A DNA stretch of 57,296 bases from Verrucomicrobiia bacterium (lineage in GTDB: Bacteria; Omnitrophota; Omnitrophia; Omnitrophales; Aquincolibacteriaceae): contig DATJFP010000035.1 of the NCBI GenBank assembly GCA_035495615.1, positions 1 to 57,296 on the forward strand, read 5' to 3'. This document shows, piece after piece, positions 1 through 6,284 of this stretch. Under the pieces are notes generated by a model. It saw only the letters and a list, made by a program, of their open reading frames with translations. It was not told where the DNA came from and did no database searches. A program made the translations under genes and the position numbers. Each line of letters opens with the position of its first letter. Positions within the stretch are counted from its first letter, which is position 1.

Positions 1-3000
1 GCGTTGCCCTGGATGAGCCAGCGTTTGCCAAACGTATCCACCTGCACAAGACGCGCCGTATCTTTCTTGCCCGCGGCATCCGTCAGTTCCAAAAGGACGC
101 TTGTCACATTCGGGCTATCGACCTGCAGCACAAGACCGCCCGGGAACGCCGTATTGAAATTGATCGCTTCAACTGTATTCGTCGTGTTCGGATTGTCGTA
201 GGCAATGAAAGCGCCGCCAAAAGCCGTGGCGTTGGCGCCGTTGTAATTGACCGTCGCAAAGGTCTGGCCGAGATTTGTGATCGTCGCCGTAGACCCCGTC
301 GACGAAAAAGCGTTGATCGAAGGTCTCTCTCCCGTCGAAAGAAGAGGAAGTTTCGTGATGTCCGCTTCTGTCTTCGTCGGATCAGGACCGATTTCTTTCG
401 TTACATCAAAATCGCCCCACTGGAGGGTTAATTGGGAATTACTTTCCTGTCCCAGCACCACAAGCGACATCGTAACGATGTCCGCGGCGTTCACTTCGTC
501 AAATTGCGAAGGCAAAACCTTCCAGCGTTGGCCGAAGCCCAGGATATTCGTGAGCTTCACGGAATCCACGTTCCCCTGCGAATCGGTGACTTCCATGACC
601 ACGTCCGTGATATTGGCGCCGGCGCTATCCAATTGAAAAATCAAACCATTCGGATACAGCGTATTCAGATTGATGGATTCGATGCTAAGCGTCGACGGAT
701 TATCGTAATTGACAAACATGCCGCCGAAAGAGTTGCCGTTGACGCCGTTGTAGGTCAGGCGCGCCAAAGTCTCGGAAAACATCTGGAGATTCGCCGTGCT
801 GCCGTCGCCGCTGGCAAAAGCGGAAAGCGTCGGCCTGGCGCCGGTGCTCGTCAGCGGAAGTTTCGTAATATCTTGCGGCTGGGAATTGGGATCGGGCGGA
901 ACGTTTGGCGTAAACGCAAAATTTCCCCAATCCAAAGTCAGCTTCGCGTTGGTTTTCTGGCCGAGGATCACGAGCGAAATAATGGAAATCTTGGTGCGGT
1001 CGACTTCGTCAAACTGTGTTGGAAGAATTTTCCAGCGCTGTCCAAACCCAAGAATATTGGTGAGCTGGACGGAATCCACCTTGCCCGTGGCATCGGTCAC
1101 TTCCAAAATAACATCGCTGATTCCCGTGCCGGGGCTGTCCAGCTGCAGGACAAGTCCGTTCGGAAAAAGCGTATTGAAGTTGACTCCCTCGACCGTACCG
1201 GTGCCGGGATTGTCATAGTTGATGTAAAGACCGCCGAAAGAGTTGGAGCCCGTGCCGTTATAGGTGACGCGGGAAAGCGTTTCAGAAAAAGTTTCGAGTG
1301 TGGAGGTGCTGCCGTCGGAGCTCGCGAACGTATTGAGCACCGGGCGCTTGCCCTGGCTATTTAAAGGAAGCTTCGTGATGTCCTGCGGCTGTGAGTTCGG
1401 ATCTGGCGGAATCGGAGGCGTAAAGGCAAAATCGCCCCAGTCGAGCGTTAGCTGCGCATTGGACTTTTGCCCGTGAATCACGAGCGAAATGACGGAAATT
1501 TTAGTGCGGTCGACGTCATCAAACTGTGATGCCAGGATTTTCCAGCGCTGGCCGAAGCCCAGGATGTTCGTAAGCTTTACGGAATCGACATTGCCCAGGG
1601 AATCGCTGACTTCGAGCTCGATCTCGTTAATCCCGGTTCCCGGGCTGTCCAACTGGAAGATGATCCCATTCGGAAATGTCGTATTAAGATTGATGGTTTC
1701 GATGGCGCCCGTGGAAGAATCATCATAATTAATGAAGGCTCCGCCAAACGCGTCACCATTAATACCATTGTAAGTAATGCGGGAAAGGGTCTGGGAAAAC
1801 TGCTGGAGCGTCGCAGTTGAACCGCCGCTCGCAAAAGTCGTAAGCGCCGGATGCTTGCCCTGGCTATTTAAAGGAAGCTTCGTAATGTCCTGCGGCTGCG
1901 AATTCGGATCGGGCGGGATCGAAGGAGTAAAAGCGAAATTACCCCATTTAACTTTGATGGCCTGATTGTTAGCCTGCCCTTTGACGACCAGGGAGAAAAT
2001 TACGGCCTTGGTCGGATCAATCTTCTCGAATTGATTCGGCCGAGCGACCCAGCGCCGGGCCGTCCCATCGATGCTGACGAAATTCACGAAGTCGCGGTTG
2101 CCGTTAACGTCGGTGATTTCCAAATTAACCGAAGTAAGAGAGCCTCCGCTATTGTCCATCTCGAGGATTATTCCGTTCGGGAAAAGAGTGTTCAAATTGA
2201 CGGTTTCAACGGTCCCGGTCGAAGGAAGGTCGTAGCTGAAGTACGCGCCGCCGAAAGAACCCGCGCCCGTTCCATTGTACTGGAGCGTCAAATCCTTAGA
2301 CGAAGTGAGGACAACGTTAGCGGAAGAACCGTCACTGCTGGCAAACGTATTGAGAATGGGTTTGGTCGCGTCCGCTTTCGCAGGCACAGGGGTCACGTCA
2401 TTGGTCGTTTTCGTGGGATCGGGCGCGAGGTTCGGCGTAAAGCTCATGCCGCCCGTCGTAATATCGAAATAACCCGTGCCCGGATGCGTGGGCTGCGTTT
2501 CGCCGATGAAAATAATTTCTTTGATCGCATTAAAATTAATGCCGGCCAATTCGGATTTGAGAATGGTGTAATCCTGGGGCGTCGAAGTGACGGCAATGAC
2601 TTTGGAAGCCGAATTGTTGTTCGTGTCTTTGAATTCGATCTTGATCGTCGTAAAGCAGGAAGCGCTGCAGCAAAAACCGTCGCAGCGCGGATTCGTGCTC
2701 ATGCGCCAGGTAAATTCCGTAAAACCGCTCAAATTCTGGGGGCCGTATTCGGAAGCGCCGAAATTTAAAACCGCGCCCTGGAAACCGCCGTTGGAAACGT
2801 CAAAATCAAAACGAAAATTGGAGGTTGATTGCGGCTGGTTGTTCCACTGCGACATGAACGGAGCTCCGCCGCCGTTGAAAAATCCAAGGACCGGAAATCC
2901 GGGAAAAACCGTCGGGCCCTGGGAGACGAGAGGCTCGGCATATTTTTTATCGAAATCGCGTTCGTTGTATTCGTCGACCGCCTTGATAAATTCGCTCAGG

Positions 3001-3797
3001 AGATTGCGCGTATCTTTCGTGGACTGGTCCGGCGAATAATACTTCTGGAACTGGCTGACAAGATAATCAAAACCAAAAGGCTCTTTTTCGTTCAGGACCG
3101 ATTTGCCGTCGTACTGATAGGCAAATTCATTTCCCTTGGCATCGATGCCATAACTATAAAAAAGAATATCGCCTCCGAATTGTGCGGCAGCCTGGATGTC
3201 CTCTAATCCCGGCTTCGGATCCTGTCCGAGCGGATGGTTATGGGCAATCATCGCCACGCGGCCTTCGGCGGCCGCCTTCTTAAGCATGTCTTTGGCGGCT
3301 GGATTAAGGAGCACTTCGCCTTGCCTGCCGGTCGTCAGAATGACGGCTTCGCCATCGACCACAAGAATCGCGTGCTCGACGTTCAAGTTCGCCGCGGTCC
3401 TGAGATCACGGGCTTCGGGTGCTTTTGCAAGAATGTTTGCCGCAGCATAATCAGTCGTGACATCGCTCAGCGCTTCCTCCATGTCGATGCGCTGACCGTA
3501 GTCCCGATATTCCGTGTTCCCTTCACGCGCCGTCTTTTCCGGATACAGAAGAAGATCGCGGGAGAGAAAATCTTCCGTGGTTTCCTTATAATTAGCGCTG
3601 CTTTCAGGCTTGGAAGGCGCCGCGGAATCCGCGGTTTTGGTGGCTATGTTCTGCTGAGCCGTGAGATCATCGAGAGGTGTAGCAGCATAAACGGGCACAA
3701 TCAGTTGCTGTGCGAAGAAAATGAAGGAAAGCGCGGCGGAAAGATATCTCTTCGATACTATATGAAGATGCCACCTTTGGAAGGGTTTACATCTCAT
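1..3797 (-). CDS. Giant exported protein: JAMM/RadC-like domain plus tandem ~170-residue repeats (partial, C-terminus beyond window)
   Basis: The reading frame is open from the ATG at 3797 to the window edge (1265 codons) with no stop. AGGAG lies 5 bases before the ATG. Residues 15-39 form a basic-then-hydrophobic signal peptide ending VYAA. Residues ~140-230 resemble the RadC/JAB metallo-domain: HNHPLGQDPKPGLED at 186-200 matches HxHP-x(n)-S-x2-D, with Gly in place of Ser and one extra residue. Residues ~260-460 are a unique region containing a Cys-rich patch (CDGFCCSASC). From ~470 on come five copies of a 169-171 residue repeat (the fifth cut by the edge). Each has FGG.F..YD.P, INLNT.FPNG, an LTNILGFGQRW block, a WG.FAFTP strand end and a PPDP linker ending DITKLPL. 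The repeat looks like an all-beta carbohydrate-binding-type fold, which is inference. It is probably a surface-exposed or secreted giant protein. A consensus promoter sits 75 bases upstream. Confidence 0.8.
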   Translation of the reverse strand, partial: MRCKPFQRWHLHIVSKRYLSAALSFIFFAQQLIVPVYAATPLDDLTAQQNIATKTADSAAPSKPESSANYKETTEDFLSRDLLLYPEKTAREGNTEYRDYGQRIDMEEALSDVTTDYAAANILAKAPEARDLRTAANLNVEHAILVVDGEAVILTTGRQGEVLLNPAAKDMLKKAAAEGRVAMIAHNHPLGQDPKPGLEDIQAAAQFGGDILFYSYGIDAKGNEFAYQYDGKSVLNEKEPFGFDYLVSQFQKYYSPDQSTKDTRNLLSEFIKAVDEYNERDFDKKYAEPLVSQGPTVFPGFPVLGFFNGGGAPFMSQWNNQPQSTSNFRFDFDVSNGGFQGAVLNFGASEYGPQNLSGFTEFTWRMSTNPRCDGFCCSASCFTTIKIEFKDTNNNSASKVIAVTSTPQDYTILKSELAGINFNAIKEIIFIGETQPTHPGTGYFDITTGGMSFTPNLAPDPTKTTNDVTPVPAKADATKPILNTFASSDGSSANVVLTSSKDLTLQYNGTGAGSFGGAYFSYDLPSTGTVETVNLNTLFPNGIILEMDNSGGSLTSVNLEITDVNGNRDFVNFVSIDGTARRWVARPNQFEKIDPTKAVIFSLVVKGQANNQAIKVKWGNFAFTPSIPPDPNSQPQDITKLPLNSQGKHPALTTFASGGSTATLQQFSQTLSRITYNGINGDAFGGAFINYDDSSTGAIETINLNTTFPNGIIFQLDSPGTGINEIELEVSDSLGNVDSVKLTNILGFGQRWKILASQFDDVDRTKISVISLVIHGQKSNAQLTLDWGDFAFTPPIPPDPNSQPQDITKLPLNSQGKRPVLNTFASSDGSTSTLETFSETLSRVTYNGTGSNSFGGLYINYDNPGTGTVEGVNFNTLFPNGLVLQLDSPGTGISDVILEVTDATGKVDSVQLTNILGFGQRWKILPTQFDEVDRTKISIISLVILGQKTNAKLTLDWGNFAFTPNVPPDPNSQPQDITKLPLTSTGARPTLSAFASGDGSTANLQMFSETLARLTYNGVNGNSFGGMFVNYDNPSTLSIESINLNTLYPNGLIFQLDSAGANITDVVMEVTDSQGNVDSVKLTNILGFGQRWKVLPSQFDEVNAADIVTMSLVVLGQESNSQLTLQWGDFDVTKEIGPDPTKTEADITKLPLLSTGERPSINAFSSTGSTATITNLGQTFATVNYNGANATAFGGAFIAYDNPNTTNTVEAINFNTAFPGGLVLQVDSPNVTSVLLELTDAAGKKDTARLVQVDTFGKRWLIQGN
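340..2400 (-). repeat. Tandem in-frame protein repeats, period 507-513 bp
   Basis: Equivalent positions of the LPL-x-S-x-G segment fall at about 347, 857, 1367, 1874 and 2391. This gives periods of 510, 510, 507 and about 513-520 bases. Copies 2-4 are close at DNA level: blocks around 1353-1375 and 1860-1880 are nearly identical over more than 20 bases. The first copy (nearest the N-terminus, around 1880-2400) is the most divergent. All length changes are multiples of three, so the frame is kept. This suggests growth by unequal recombination inside one gene. Confidence 0.85.
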
Positions 3798-3870: not shown

Positions 3871-3899
3871 AGTATAACACTTAATTTTTTTTAAGTCAA
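3871..3899 (-). promoter_or_regulatory. Sigma70 promoter of the giant secreted protein gene
   Basis: On the minus strand TTGACT (3899-3894) is separated by exactly 17 bases from TATACT (3876-3871), about 75 bases before the start codon. The spacer is A-rich. An imperfect palindrome with arms CCTAAAT/ATTTAGG (3904-3924) lies directly upstream of the -35 and could be an operator. Apart from these, the stretch 3925-4074 up to the tRNA genes shows only a small inverted repeat GGTTTC/GAAACC near 4022-4042. Confidence 0.7.
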
Positions 3900-4074
3900 A
3901 CAACCTAAATTGATACGATTTAGGCAGTTACAACATATTTTCAAGAATATAATAACACACAACGCCTTTCTTGCCGTCGGGAGAAACCTGAAAAGAGCCC
4001 GGGATAGCGCTGGTAAAAAGAGGTTTCTTCTGTGGTAGAAACCCCGAGCGAGTCGGGAGAAGACTGAAAGAATA

Positions 4075-4162
4075 TGCCCGGAGCCAGACTTGAACTGGCA
4101 CGGGAGTTTAAATTCCCGACGGATTTTAAGTCCGTTGCGTCTGCCGATTCCGCCATCCGGGC
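4075..4162 (-). tRNA. tRNA-Leu (anticodon UAA)
   Basis: The minus strand folds as a class II tRNA of 88 nt. Acceptor arms are GCCCGGA (4162-4156) and TCCGGGC (4082-4076), followed by discriminator A (4075). The D-arm contains GGCGGAATCGGCAGACGC, the anticodon loop CTTAAAA gives UAA, there is a long variable arm, and the T-loop is GTTCAAGTC. CCA is not encoded. Confidence 0.95.
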
Positions 4163-4853: not shown

Positions 4854-5537
4854 TCACTTTTGGATATTCAGGTATGACTTTTTTGCCTTGGCTTCGACCC
4901 ATTCTATAAGGGCCTTGGCGATATGCGATTTAGGCTGTTTCCTATAGGTTTGGATCTGTCCGCCGGGAGAAAGGAACGCCGTATTGATCCGGCGGTCTCC
5001 GAACGGGATATGCGTTTTCGAATAATAATTTGCTACGATCCCATCGAGGTGTTTCCGCTTCAGTTTGGACCGCGCGTTACGGAGCCAATCTTCGGTCTCC
5101 AGGCAAAAGCCGATGACGATGCGGCCGCCTTTACGGCGCGCCAAGCCAGCCACGATATCGGGCGTCTGGACCAGCCGCACCTGCCTCATCTTCGTCCTGC
5201 GGATTTTATGCGCCTTCTTTTGCGGAAAGGTGAAATCGCATACGGCCGCGACCATGACCAAAACGTCGTGCCGGGGAAATGCCGTTTCGCATTTCTTTTT
5301 GAGCTCCGCCGCGCTGGTAATTGAAATAAACCGGGCACCGCGCGGCGCGGGCAATGCGGTAGGGCCGCTGATCAACGTAACATGGTGGCCTTTTTTCTGC
5401 GCCGCGCTGGCGAGAGCGTACCCCATCTCACCCGTGGAAACGTTGGAAAGAAAACGAACCGGATCGAGCATCTCTCTCGTGGGGCCGGCCGTGATGAGAA
5501 CTTTCAAGGAAGAAGGTTTTATTTTTTGCCTGCGCAT
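4854..5537 (-). CDS. coaB: Phosphopantothenate-cysteine ligase (CoaB half of CoaBC)
   Basis: 227 residues from the ATG at 5537. It joins 4'-phosphopantothenate to cysteine in coenzyme A synthesis. Seen are the CoaB signature ITAGPTREMLDPVRFLSNVS with STGEMGYALA (nucleotide-binding Rossmann start), VAAVCDFT, KIRR, QTPDIVAGL and IGFCLETED. The frame is -1 relative to coaC, and the two overlap by 19 bases. In most bacteria both are one bifunctional protein. Here a run of six A just before the coaC stop (GGC AAA AAA TAA) would let a -1 slip produce the normal CoaC-CoaB fusion without loss. The separate ATG at 5537 also allows translational coupling. The upstream in-frame ATG at 5600 lies inside coaC and is unlikely. 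Confidence 0.9.
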   Translation of the reverse strand: MRRQKIKPSSLKVLITAGPTREMLDPVRFLSNVSTGEMGYALASAAQKKGHHVTLISGPTALPAPRGARFISITSAAELKKKCETAFPRHDVLVMVAAVCDFTFPQKKAHKIRRTKMRQVRLVQTPDIVAGLARRKGGRIVIGFCLETEDWLRNARSKLKRKHLDGIVANYYSKTHIPFGDRRINTAFLSPGGQIQTYRKQPKSHIAKALIEWVEAKAKKSYLNIQK

Positions 5538-6103
5538 CGGGCGACGACTTCCAGAATCGCTTTCGTATCGGAAATATGGCCCATCGCGGTTCTGCCGCAA
5601 ACAAGGTCGCCCTGGATGGGATCGACGATTTCATACCCCACTTCCCGCAAAGTCGCCAAATTCTTCTGCGTGAGGGTATGATAGTACATCTGGTCGTTCA
5701 TGGCGGGAACGACGATCACCGGCTTCCGAGTGGCGAGCACAATGCAACTCGCCAGGTCATCGGCCATGCCTGCGGCAAGACGCGCGATGAAATTGGCTGA
5801 AGCAGGAGCAATGAGGACCGCGTCGGATTCTTCCGCCAGGGACGTATGGATCACATCGTACGGGGTATCCGCGGCGAAGAACTCCCCGTAAACAGGCTGT
5901 CCAGAAACGGCCCGCAAGGTCAAAGGGGTCACAAACTCCTGGGCCCCTTTAGTAAGCACACAAGTGACCTTGGCGCCAGCTTCGCGGAGTTCCTTGATCA
6001 CGTCCCCCGACTTATAAGCGGCAATACTTCCCGAAAGAATCAGAAGAAGGTTTTTACCCTTCAGTTTTTTCGGATTTTTTACCGCGGGTCTTGGGTTCTT
6101 CAT
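5519..6103 (-). CDS. coaC: Phosphopantothenoylcysteine decarboxylase (CoaC half of CoaBC)
   Basis: 194 residues from ATG 6103, a flavoprotein of the HFCD family. It decarboxylates phosphopantothenoylcysteine to phosphopantetheine. Seen are SGSIAAYK near the N-terminus, the catalytic-His region HTSLAEESDAVLIAPASANF, GMADDL, PAMNDQMYYH (the PAMN motif) and DLVCGRTAMGHIS carrying the active-site Cys. It ends ...CAGKK at a six-A run directly before the stop (see coaB). The start overlaps the end of rpoZ by 50 bases, and an alternative upstream start at 6139 adds 12 residues. The order yicC-gmk-rpoZ-coaBC is the common bacterial arrangement. Confidence 0.9.
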   Translation of the reverse strand: MKNPRPAVKNPKKLKGKNLLLILSGSIAAYKSGDVIKELREAGAKVTCVLTKGAQEFVTPLTLRAVSGQPVYGEFFAADTPYDVIHTSLAEESDAVLIAPASANFIARLAAGMADDLASCIVLATRKPVIVVPAMNDQMYYHTLTQKNLATLREVGYEIVDPIQGDLVCGRTAMGHISDTKAILEVVARCAGKK

Positions 6104-6284
6104 AGCGAACTTTTCCGCCTGCGATTTCCTGCAGAGCAATCACGGCAACCTTTTTGGAATCCGAAGCGACCAGTGTCTGTGCACCCTGGGTCAATTCGTT
6201 GGCGCGCTGTGCCGCCGCAAGTACGAGTTTATAAAAGCTGGGCTTTTCGTTCGTGACCAGCTTTTCAAGAGGAACGTATGGCAT
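6054..6284 (-). CDS. rpoZ: RNA polymerase omega subunit
   Basis: 76 residues. The start at 6284 is chosen because AAGGAG lies 12 bases upstream and the family begins close to this point. The upstream ATG at 6323 would add 13 basic residues inside gmk. Omega motifs are visible: SFYKLVLAAAQRANEL, then KKVAVIALQEIAGGKVRYEE, equivalent to the conserved 'A..E...GKI' segment. It assists assembly and stability of the beta' subunit. It overlaps the gmk 3' end by 20 bases, suggesting translational coupling. Confidence 0.88.
   Translation of the reverse strand: MPYVPLEKLVTNEKPSFYKLVLAAAQRANELTQGAQTLVASDSKKVAVIALQEIAGGKVRYEEPKTRGKKSEKTEG

Follow-up and report, generated by a model that had tools for sequence, protein, structure and literature searches.

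The window analyzed here, a stretch of 57,296 nucleotides from an Omnitrophota genome (contig DATJFP010000035.1 of assembly GCA_035495615.1; contig C35 of genome G000 in the following), carries at its left end the 5' part of a gene for a large exported protein that combines a JAMM/MPN-like module, a long array of β-sandwich repeats and a C-terminal glycanase-like domain. With a probability of roughly 55%, we consider this protein to be a Sec-exported, exopolysaccharide-associated glycanase scaffold encoded by the first gene of a Wza/Wzc-type operon, with a JAMM module that likely cuts exported polypeptides. After export by Sec, the repeats would serve as a long polysaccharide-binding stalk on the polysaccharide of the operon, and the C-terminal glycanase, related to (alpha/alpha)6-barrel enzymes, would trim or release the polysaccharide made by the operon, a role proposed by analogy with operon-encoded glycanases of other exopolysaccharide systems. 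The JAMM module would act as a zinc peptidase-like unit cutting exported polypeptides (the protein itself or neighboring surface proteins) during maturation or release. It more likely acts on polypeptides than on sugar, because it is common to otherwise unrelated exported giants. The architecture, the fusion, and the conservation of catalytic signatures and operon are directly supported, and we infer the polysaccharide substrate as well as the activity and the target of the JAMM module.

An earlier note on this DNA had described a giant exported protein with a JAMM/RadC-like domain and tandem repeats, its frame still open at the window edge. The open reading frame (ORF) of exported type indeed starts with ATG and runs over 1265 residues to the window edge without a stop. 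The left end of C35 overlaps the start of contig C39 of the same genome by 141 identical bases, and the frame continues on C39 with 1508 further residues up to a stop at C39:4666, giving a full protein of 2773 residues (8.3 kb); no early stop was found left of base 1. The value of 141 bases corresponds to a typical assembler k-mer, and the assembly appears to have broken within the repeat array. It is very improbable that the two contigs were wrongly joined over a repeat and that JAMM module and glycanase are two proteins: even though the break falls within the repeat array and the overlap has k-mer length, the 141 bases overlap exactly and in frame and occur nowhere else in the genome, and five genomes have the fusion on one contig each (e.g., JAJDCD010000008.1 of 466 kb). 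The export of the protein, also claimed by the note, is supported by a hydrophobic segment of Sec type at its start; signal peptides were throughout judged by hydrophobicity only. The layout of the protein is as follows (aa, amino acids):

3..3797, minus strand: 5' part of the JAMM-CBM-glycanase protein (1265 of 2773 aa; CBM, carbohydrate-binding module), continuing on G000:C39:142-4666, plus strand (L006)
1..141, strand not applicable: exact 141-base overlap with the start of G000:C39; apparent assembly break inside the repeat array
3684..3797, minus strand: predicted Sec signal peptide, aa 1-38, ending ...FIFFAQQLIVPVYA/ATP, read by eye from the sequence; hydrophobic segment at the same place in relatives
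Full protein, N-terminal part: aa 1-38 signal peptide; aa 39-91 linker, variable apart from one conserved motif; aa 92-284 JAMM module
Full protein, remaining part: aa 300-1476 seven repeats; aa ~1485-2175 four repeats of a second type; aa 2180-2612 glycanase; aa 2612-2773 terminal domain (~160 residues)

The pairing of JAMM module and glycanase recurs in other genomes. Five of them encode both in one unbroken frame (L098/L071 with 2175 aa on JAJDCD010000008.1, L072, L097/L074, L110/L085, and L109). Two more are interrupted within the repeats, by a frame change at a repeat boundary in G028 and by runs of N at the junction in G033, and for this reason appear to be single genes broken up during assembly. 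The genomes compared are metagenome-assembled and fragmented. As in G000, the JAMM and glycanase frames lie on separate contigs in G009, G010, G014, G015, G016, and G018, with several of these frames reaching contig ends.

On C39, the glycanase is followed by genes for a small FecR-like exported protein, a BBP2 barrel porin, Wza, Wzc, a Wzy-like and a TPR-like protein. The labels FecR-like, Wzy-like, and TPR-like, as well as coiled-coil below, come from reading and not from significant family matches, whereas Pfam identifies Wza by Poly_export/SLBB and Wzc by Wzz together with an ATPase/kinase-type domain. Poly_export/SLBB, Wzz with a kinase-type ATPase, and a barrel porin, the hallmarks of a Wza/Wzc operon, are thus found in one run. 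The order of glycanase, FecR-like, BBP2, Wza, Wzc, and Wzy genes is shared by at least six genomes (G000, G003, G008, G010, G014, and G015), is near-identical in G004 and partial in G013, and in G002 includes a gene for a 3064-aa JAMM protein inserted between the glycanase and FecR-like genes. This neighbor comparison covered the exopolysaccharide genes only. Operon-encoded glycanases such as BcsZ and PelA occur in exopolysaccharide synthesis and export operons. The protein described here resembles them in having its glycanase gene inside a polysaccharide operon, but is much larger and additionally carries a CBM-like stalk and a JAMM module.

The C-terminal domain (aa 2180-2612) matches EeSGL1 (8XUJ), the nearest of the β-1,2-glucanases of glycoside hydrolase (GH) clan GH-S, with an E-value of 8e-18 over ~400 aligned residues at low identity. 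EeSGL1 is a GH192 β-1,2-glucanase with the catalytic residues D149 and E221 (PMC12102758). The residues aligned to these two are kept in 37 of 37 and 36 of 37 related domains, respectively, and the Phe of the clan in 36 of 37. In the window protein all four clan positions (acidic base, Glu, Phe, and Tyr) align, and the domain is likely an acid/base glycanase. Beyond the low identity, it differs from EeSGL1 by a clan Tyr that is variable among its relatives and by its fusion to a very long exported chain.

In total, the full protein contains 11 β-sandwich repeats, seven of ~165 residues (300-1476) and four of the second type (~1485-2175). Five of them are complete within the window, which also includes part of a sixth, in line with the at least five tandem repeats of ~170 residues counted before. 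Using copy 476-640 as reference, HMMER placed the copies at aa 476-640, 649-809, 817-979, 987-1149, and 1158-1316, with independent E-values of 1e-35 to 1e-58 for the non-reference ones, and recognized the first repeat (~aa 300-469) as a diverged copy. The model of this first repeat matches CBM11/CBM30 (1v0a, 1wzx; E-value 1.9e-5, probability 1.00), corresponding to a β-jelly-roll CBM fold; the other repeats were grouped by sequence similarity to each other and not by model.

2391..2900, minus strand: β-sandwich repeat 1, aa 300-469, predicted CBM11/CBM30 fold (structure model and HMMER)
1878..2372, minus strand: β-sandwich repeat 2, aa 476-640 (HMMER)
1371..1862, minus strand: β-sandwich repeat 3, aa 646-809 (HMMER)
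861..1355, minus strand: β-sandwich repeat 4, aa 815-979 (HMMER)
351..845, minus strand: β-sandwich repeat 5, aa 985-1149 (HMMER)
3..335, minus strand: β-sandwich repeat 6, aa 1155-1265, cut by the window edge and ending at aa 1316 in the full protein (HMMER)

The description as a repeat stalk therefore holds for the repeats themselves but was incomplete, as it lacked the CBM11/30-like nature of repeat 1, the GH-S glycanase-like domain at the C-terminus, and the exopolysaccharide operon.

The N-terminal module carries the HNHP...D motif reported earlier, which we located in the DNA at residues 186-189 and 200 and which, together with a Glu, forms the JAMM/MPN+ signature of Glu and HxH...D:

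2946..3524, minus strand: JAMM/MPN-like module, aa 92-284 (alignment, model, and profile comparison)
3375-3377, 3240-3242, 3234-3236, and 3198-3200, minus strand: JAMM site residues E141, H186, H188, and D200, respectively
3207-3209, minus strand: codon gga of Gly197 at the position of the usual JAMM Ser; Ser in nearly all relatives

Among 31 aligned family members, mostly only 20-40% identical to the window copy, the E, H, H, and D residues are near-invariant and the Ser is present in more than 90%. Since Foldseek results of a 432-residue model were dominated by the CBM fold, the JAMM module was modeled alone with AlphaFold2 (residues 92-300, 22 sequences), resulting in a predicted local distance difference test (pLDDT) value of 91 and a predicted template modeling score (pTM) of 0.89. 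The order of elements in this model is that of JAB domains: a helix, a strand with the Glu at its start, a strand, a helix, a strand ending in HxH, and a helix with the Asp. Its top Foldseek matches, although at weak E-values, are nearly all MPN/JAB structures (BRCC36/KIAA0157, BubCD, EMC, CSN5, Npl4-MPN, proteasome lid, and Cap3). In profile-profile comparison, the family aligned with RadC (probability 79, score 37) and Prok-JAB (probability 68, score 35), with HxH matching HxH and PS..D matching PS..D; both profiles were built from genomes of the same group. Probabilities of 40 column shuffles each reached maxima of 5.3 (RadC) and 1.5 (Prok-JAB), and those of reversed profiles 0.2. Despite this similarity, the module stays below the cut-offs of both families. 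Pfam Prok-JAB (PF14464) gave weak matches in nine of the 31 members (best E-value 4.4e-4) and none for the window protein, with L071 at 14.1 bits against a curated cut-off of 25. Pfam RadC was found in one of the 31 (E-value 0.016) and is not listed for the window protein, for which TIGR00608 scored 15 bits against a cut-off of 133.85; membership in RadC was consequently rejected. An ordinary RadC (C69) and Prok-JAB (C74) exist as separate genes in G000. Of the earlier JAMM/RadC-like assignment, the JAMM/MPN part is hence retained and the RadC part is not. Residue conservation, model, Foldseek, and profile comparisons in combination make it very likely that the module represents a divergent JAMM family.

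With the JAMM/MPN+ metalloproteases (BRCC36, CSN5, Rpn11, BubCD, and Cap3), the module shares the Glu/HxH/Asp residues, at family level the PS..D spacing, and, in its model, the order of strands and helices; its nearest solved folds, at weak E-values, are of this kind. Unlike these enzymes, whose named members are cytoplasmic or nuclear, it belongs to an exported protein, is placed N-terminal to repeats of sugar-binding type, has Gly in place of Ser, and has no detectable ubiquitin-like partner. A candidate for such a partner, a polyubiquitin phmmer match to a repeat of type B (E-values down to 1.6e-18), was rejected as chance. It was traced to the sum of nine weak matches along tandem ubiquitins, each scoring 7-9 bits, with single ubiquitins at E-values of ~0.1-1, and the matching region is an ordinary repeat common to its sister copies.

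A search across genomes, one for each species, revealed 23 JAMM loci; it used a narrower JAMM alignment, the broad one having no sufficiently conserved block. The named relatives found in this way are all Omnitrophota, in agreement with the source suggested for the DNA beforehand. Within the phylum, 31 of 193 genomes contain the module: 20 of 27 in the family of the window, 10 of 20 others in its order, and one elsewhere. JAMM-bearing frames extend to 11,896, 14,636, 17,962, 21,284, 23,704, 37,731, and 39,033 aa, the largest being those of G021:C47 (L112; 39,033 aa), G099:C3 (L113; 37,731 aa), and G039:C4 (L080; 23,704 aa, two matches). The module lies near the N-terminus in L080 (residues 328-513), and the sequence following it in the family varies, comprising CBM-like repeats, laminin-G-like lectin domains, immunoglobulin (Ig)-like and RHS repeats, or coiled-coil-looking stretches (by reading). 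Judged by these varied positions and varied following domains, JAMM is a mobile module of the giant exported proteins of the phylum and not the private part of one enzyme. Giant ORFs of Omnitrophota are defined as >20 kb (PMC10066038). Our gene, at 8.3 kb and situated in a conserved exopolysaccharide operon, is below this class, even though it stems from the same phylum and its JAMM module as well as a weaker GH-S-like match are found inside such ORFs. The protein can thus be called large but, by the standard of a phylum in which its own genome holds a frame of 23,964 aa, not giant. This complete frame (G000:C88; L176, L175, L070, L159-L161; joined-stretch 8417-80308, minus strand) has a signal peptide-like start and a GH-S-like domain at approximately residues 9461-9864 (E-value 8e-29), with another such domain in an adjoining 2729-aa frame. 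A second JAMM protein of G000, of at least 4002 aa (G000:C38; L069:3-12008, minus strand), has a signal peptide, an FLQD motif, and the module at frame residues 561-729. In G025:C14 (L083:536-14968, minus strand), a JAMM protein of 4811 aa carries Ig-like and RHS repeats reminiscent of polymorphic toxin scaffolds.

Several findings weigh against the proposed glycanase scaffold with a peptide-cutting JAMM module. The best Foldseek E-value of the JAMM model is 0.011, none reaches 1e-3, and template modeling scores are low. In L081, L086, and L112 the module lies deep inside the chain, a position that fits poorly with processing at the N-terminus alone. Only 17 of 37 domains keep the Tyr that defines clan GH-S, so that the substrate may not be β-1,2-glucan. 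JAMM is missing from some relatives that possess the glycanase, among them L054 (G007:C119), whose protein has a signal peptide and the FL motif; JAMM was not found in the G007 genome, which is 82% complete. Finally, Gly197 replaces the Ser between HxH and Asp that assists catalysis, and the window copy may therefore be weakened or only structural. This last point leads to a rather unlikely alternative, in which the module is a pseudo-enzyme that has no catalytic role and caps the base of surface proteins as a structural or zinc-binding element. Also in its favor are the second His lost in the copy of G002 (HFQ; L031) and the strongly conserved R, L, F, and I residues in the C-terminal helices of the module, outside the active site. 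The near-invariance of E, HxH, and D despite the low identity within the family, however, suggests conserved chemistry.

We further weighed predation or attack, already raised in the earlier note, with the stalk attaching to another cell, the glycanase opening its capsule, and JAMM cutting target proteins. For giant ORFs of Omnitrophota, roles in attaching to target cells and degrading their surface have been proposed (PMC10066038), JAMM modules do occur in very large ORFs including the RHS-repeat protein of G025, and the Tox-JAB-1/2 domains of polymorphic toxins (PMC3482391) are likewise exported JAB domains in repeat proteins. In contrast to these potential toxin modules, the JAMM module of the window protein does not occupy a C-terminal toxin tip but is N-terminal (92-284 of 2773), with CBM-like repeats and a glycanase located after it. 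With the gene embedded in a conserved exopolysaccharide synthesis and export operon and nothing in its setting, compared for exopolysaccharide genes, pointing to predation, we regard an attack function as unlikely. CBM-like repeat, glycanase, and operon together favor a role in the polysaccharide of the cell itself over predation or protein release.

Between signal peptide and module, the linker is variable except for one motif:

3537..3569, minus strand: linker motif FLSRDLLLYPE, ~40 residues past the signal peptide, a relaxed match to the family pattern FLx(2-6)PLS

The strict FL...PLS pattern was found in 17 of 33 family linkers compared with 0.56 expected from shuffles (linkers L010-L038, L084, L099, L104, L107, L114, and L115, besides the window), its fuller form, (S/T)xxFLx(2-6)PLSxxTP, lying ~40 residues downstream of the signal peptide. 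Possible functions of the motif are docking, sorting, or cleavage. A genome-wide sorting signal was rejected, as only two of 64 signal peptide-like ORFs without JAMM carry it compared with 1.5 expected; it is a family feature plus two suggestive proteins. Those are divergent secreted repeat proteins without JAMM on G000:C23 (L007:8045-11290, minus strand, and L007:11521-14082, plus strand), in both of which FL...PLS is as far from the signal peptide as in the JAMM family. One of them shares the CBM-like repeats, and sugar-nucleotide and glycosyltransferase-like genes adjoin the pair. The constant placement of the motif in most family members, within an otherwise variable linker, would fit a self-processing peptidase that cuts at FL...PLS and thereby releases or re-anchors the giant chain after export. 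We find this quite unlikely, considering that the motif is also present without JAMM in G007 and in the two secreted proteins of G000, that the linker has a pLDDT below 50 in the 432-residue model and does not form a confidently folded part of it, and that known JAMM enzymes mostly cleave isopeptide or ubiquitin-tail bonds.

Upstream of the gene, pattern matching revealed the following sites:

3871..3899, minus strand: promoter-like TTGACT-17-TATACT with TG, ~74 bases before the ATG (pattern match only)
4020-4045 and 4076-4089: terminator-like stems upstream of the promoter-like site (pattern match only)

The promoter-like site is a possible start of the exopolysaccharide transcription unit. 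Farther along the window, a DFP domain (DNA/pantothenate flavoprotein C-terminal) is encoded in its own frame (4854-5600, minus strand), overlapped by what looks like the flavoprotein half (CoaC; 5519-6139, minus strand), suggesting a split CoaBC.

Bacterial JAMM/JAB domains have long been regarded as intracellular (PMC3482391), and the functions of the giant ORFs of Omnitrophota are hard to assess (PMC10066038). No paper naming the present JAMM family was found in the open-licence literature, and the JAMM module of the giant surface proteins of this order appears undescribed so far. Tentatively, it may constitute a dedicated extracellular JAMM class that matures or releases giant surface proteins of this Omnitrophota order without a ubiquitin-like partner, coupled within one chain to polysaccharide trimming. 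The exported family, at the detection limit of Pfam, keeps the metalloprotease signature and occurs in most genera of one uncultured family, in ORFs of up to 39,033 aa. Its fusion to a glycanase within a conserved exopolysaccharide operon provides a concrete and testable link of giant-type exported proteins to a pathway.

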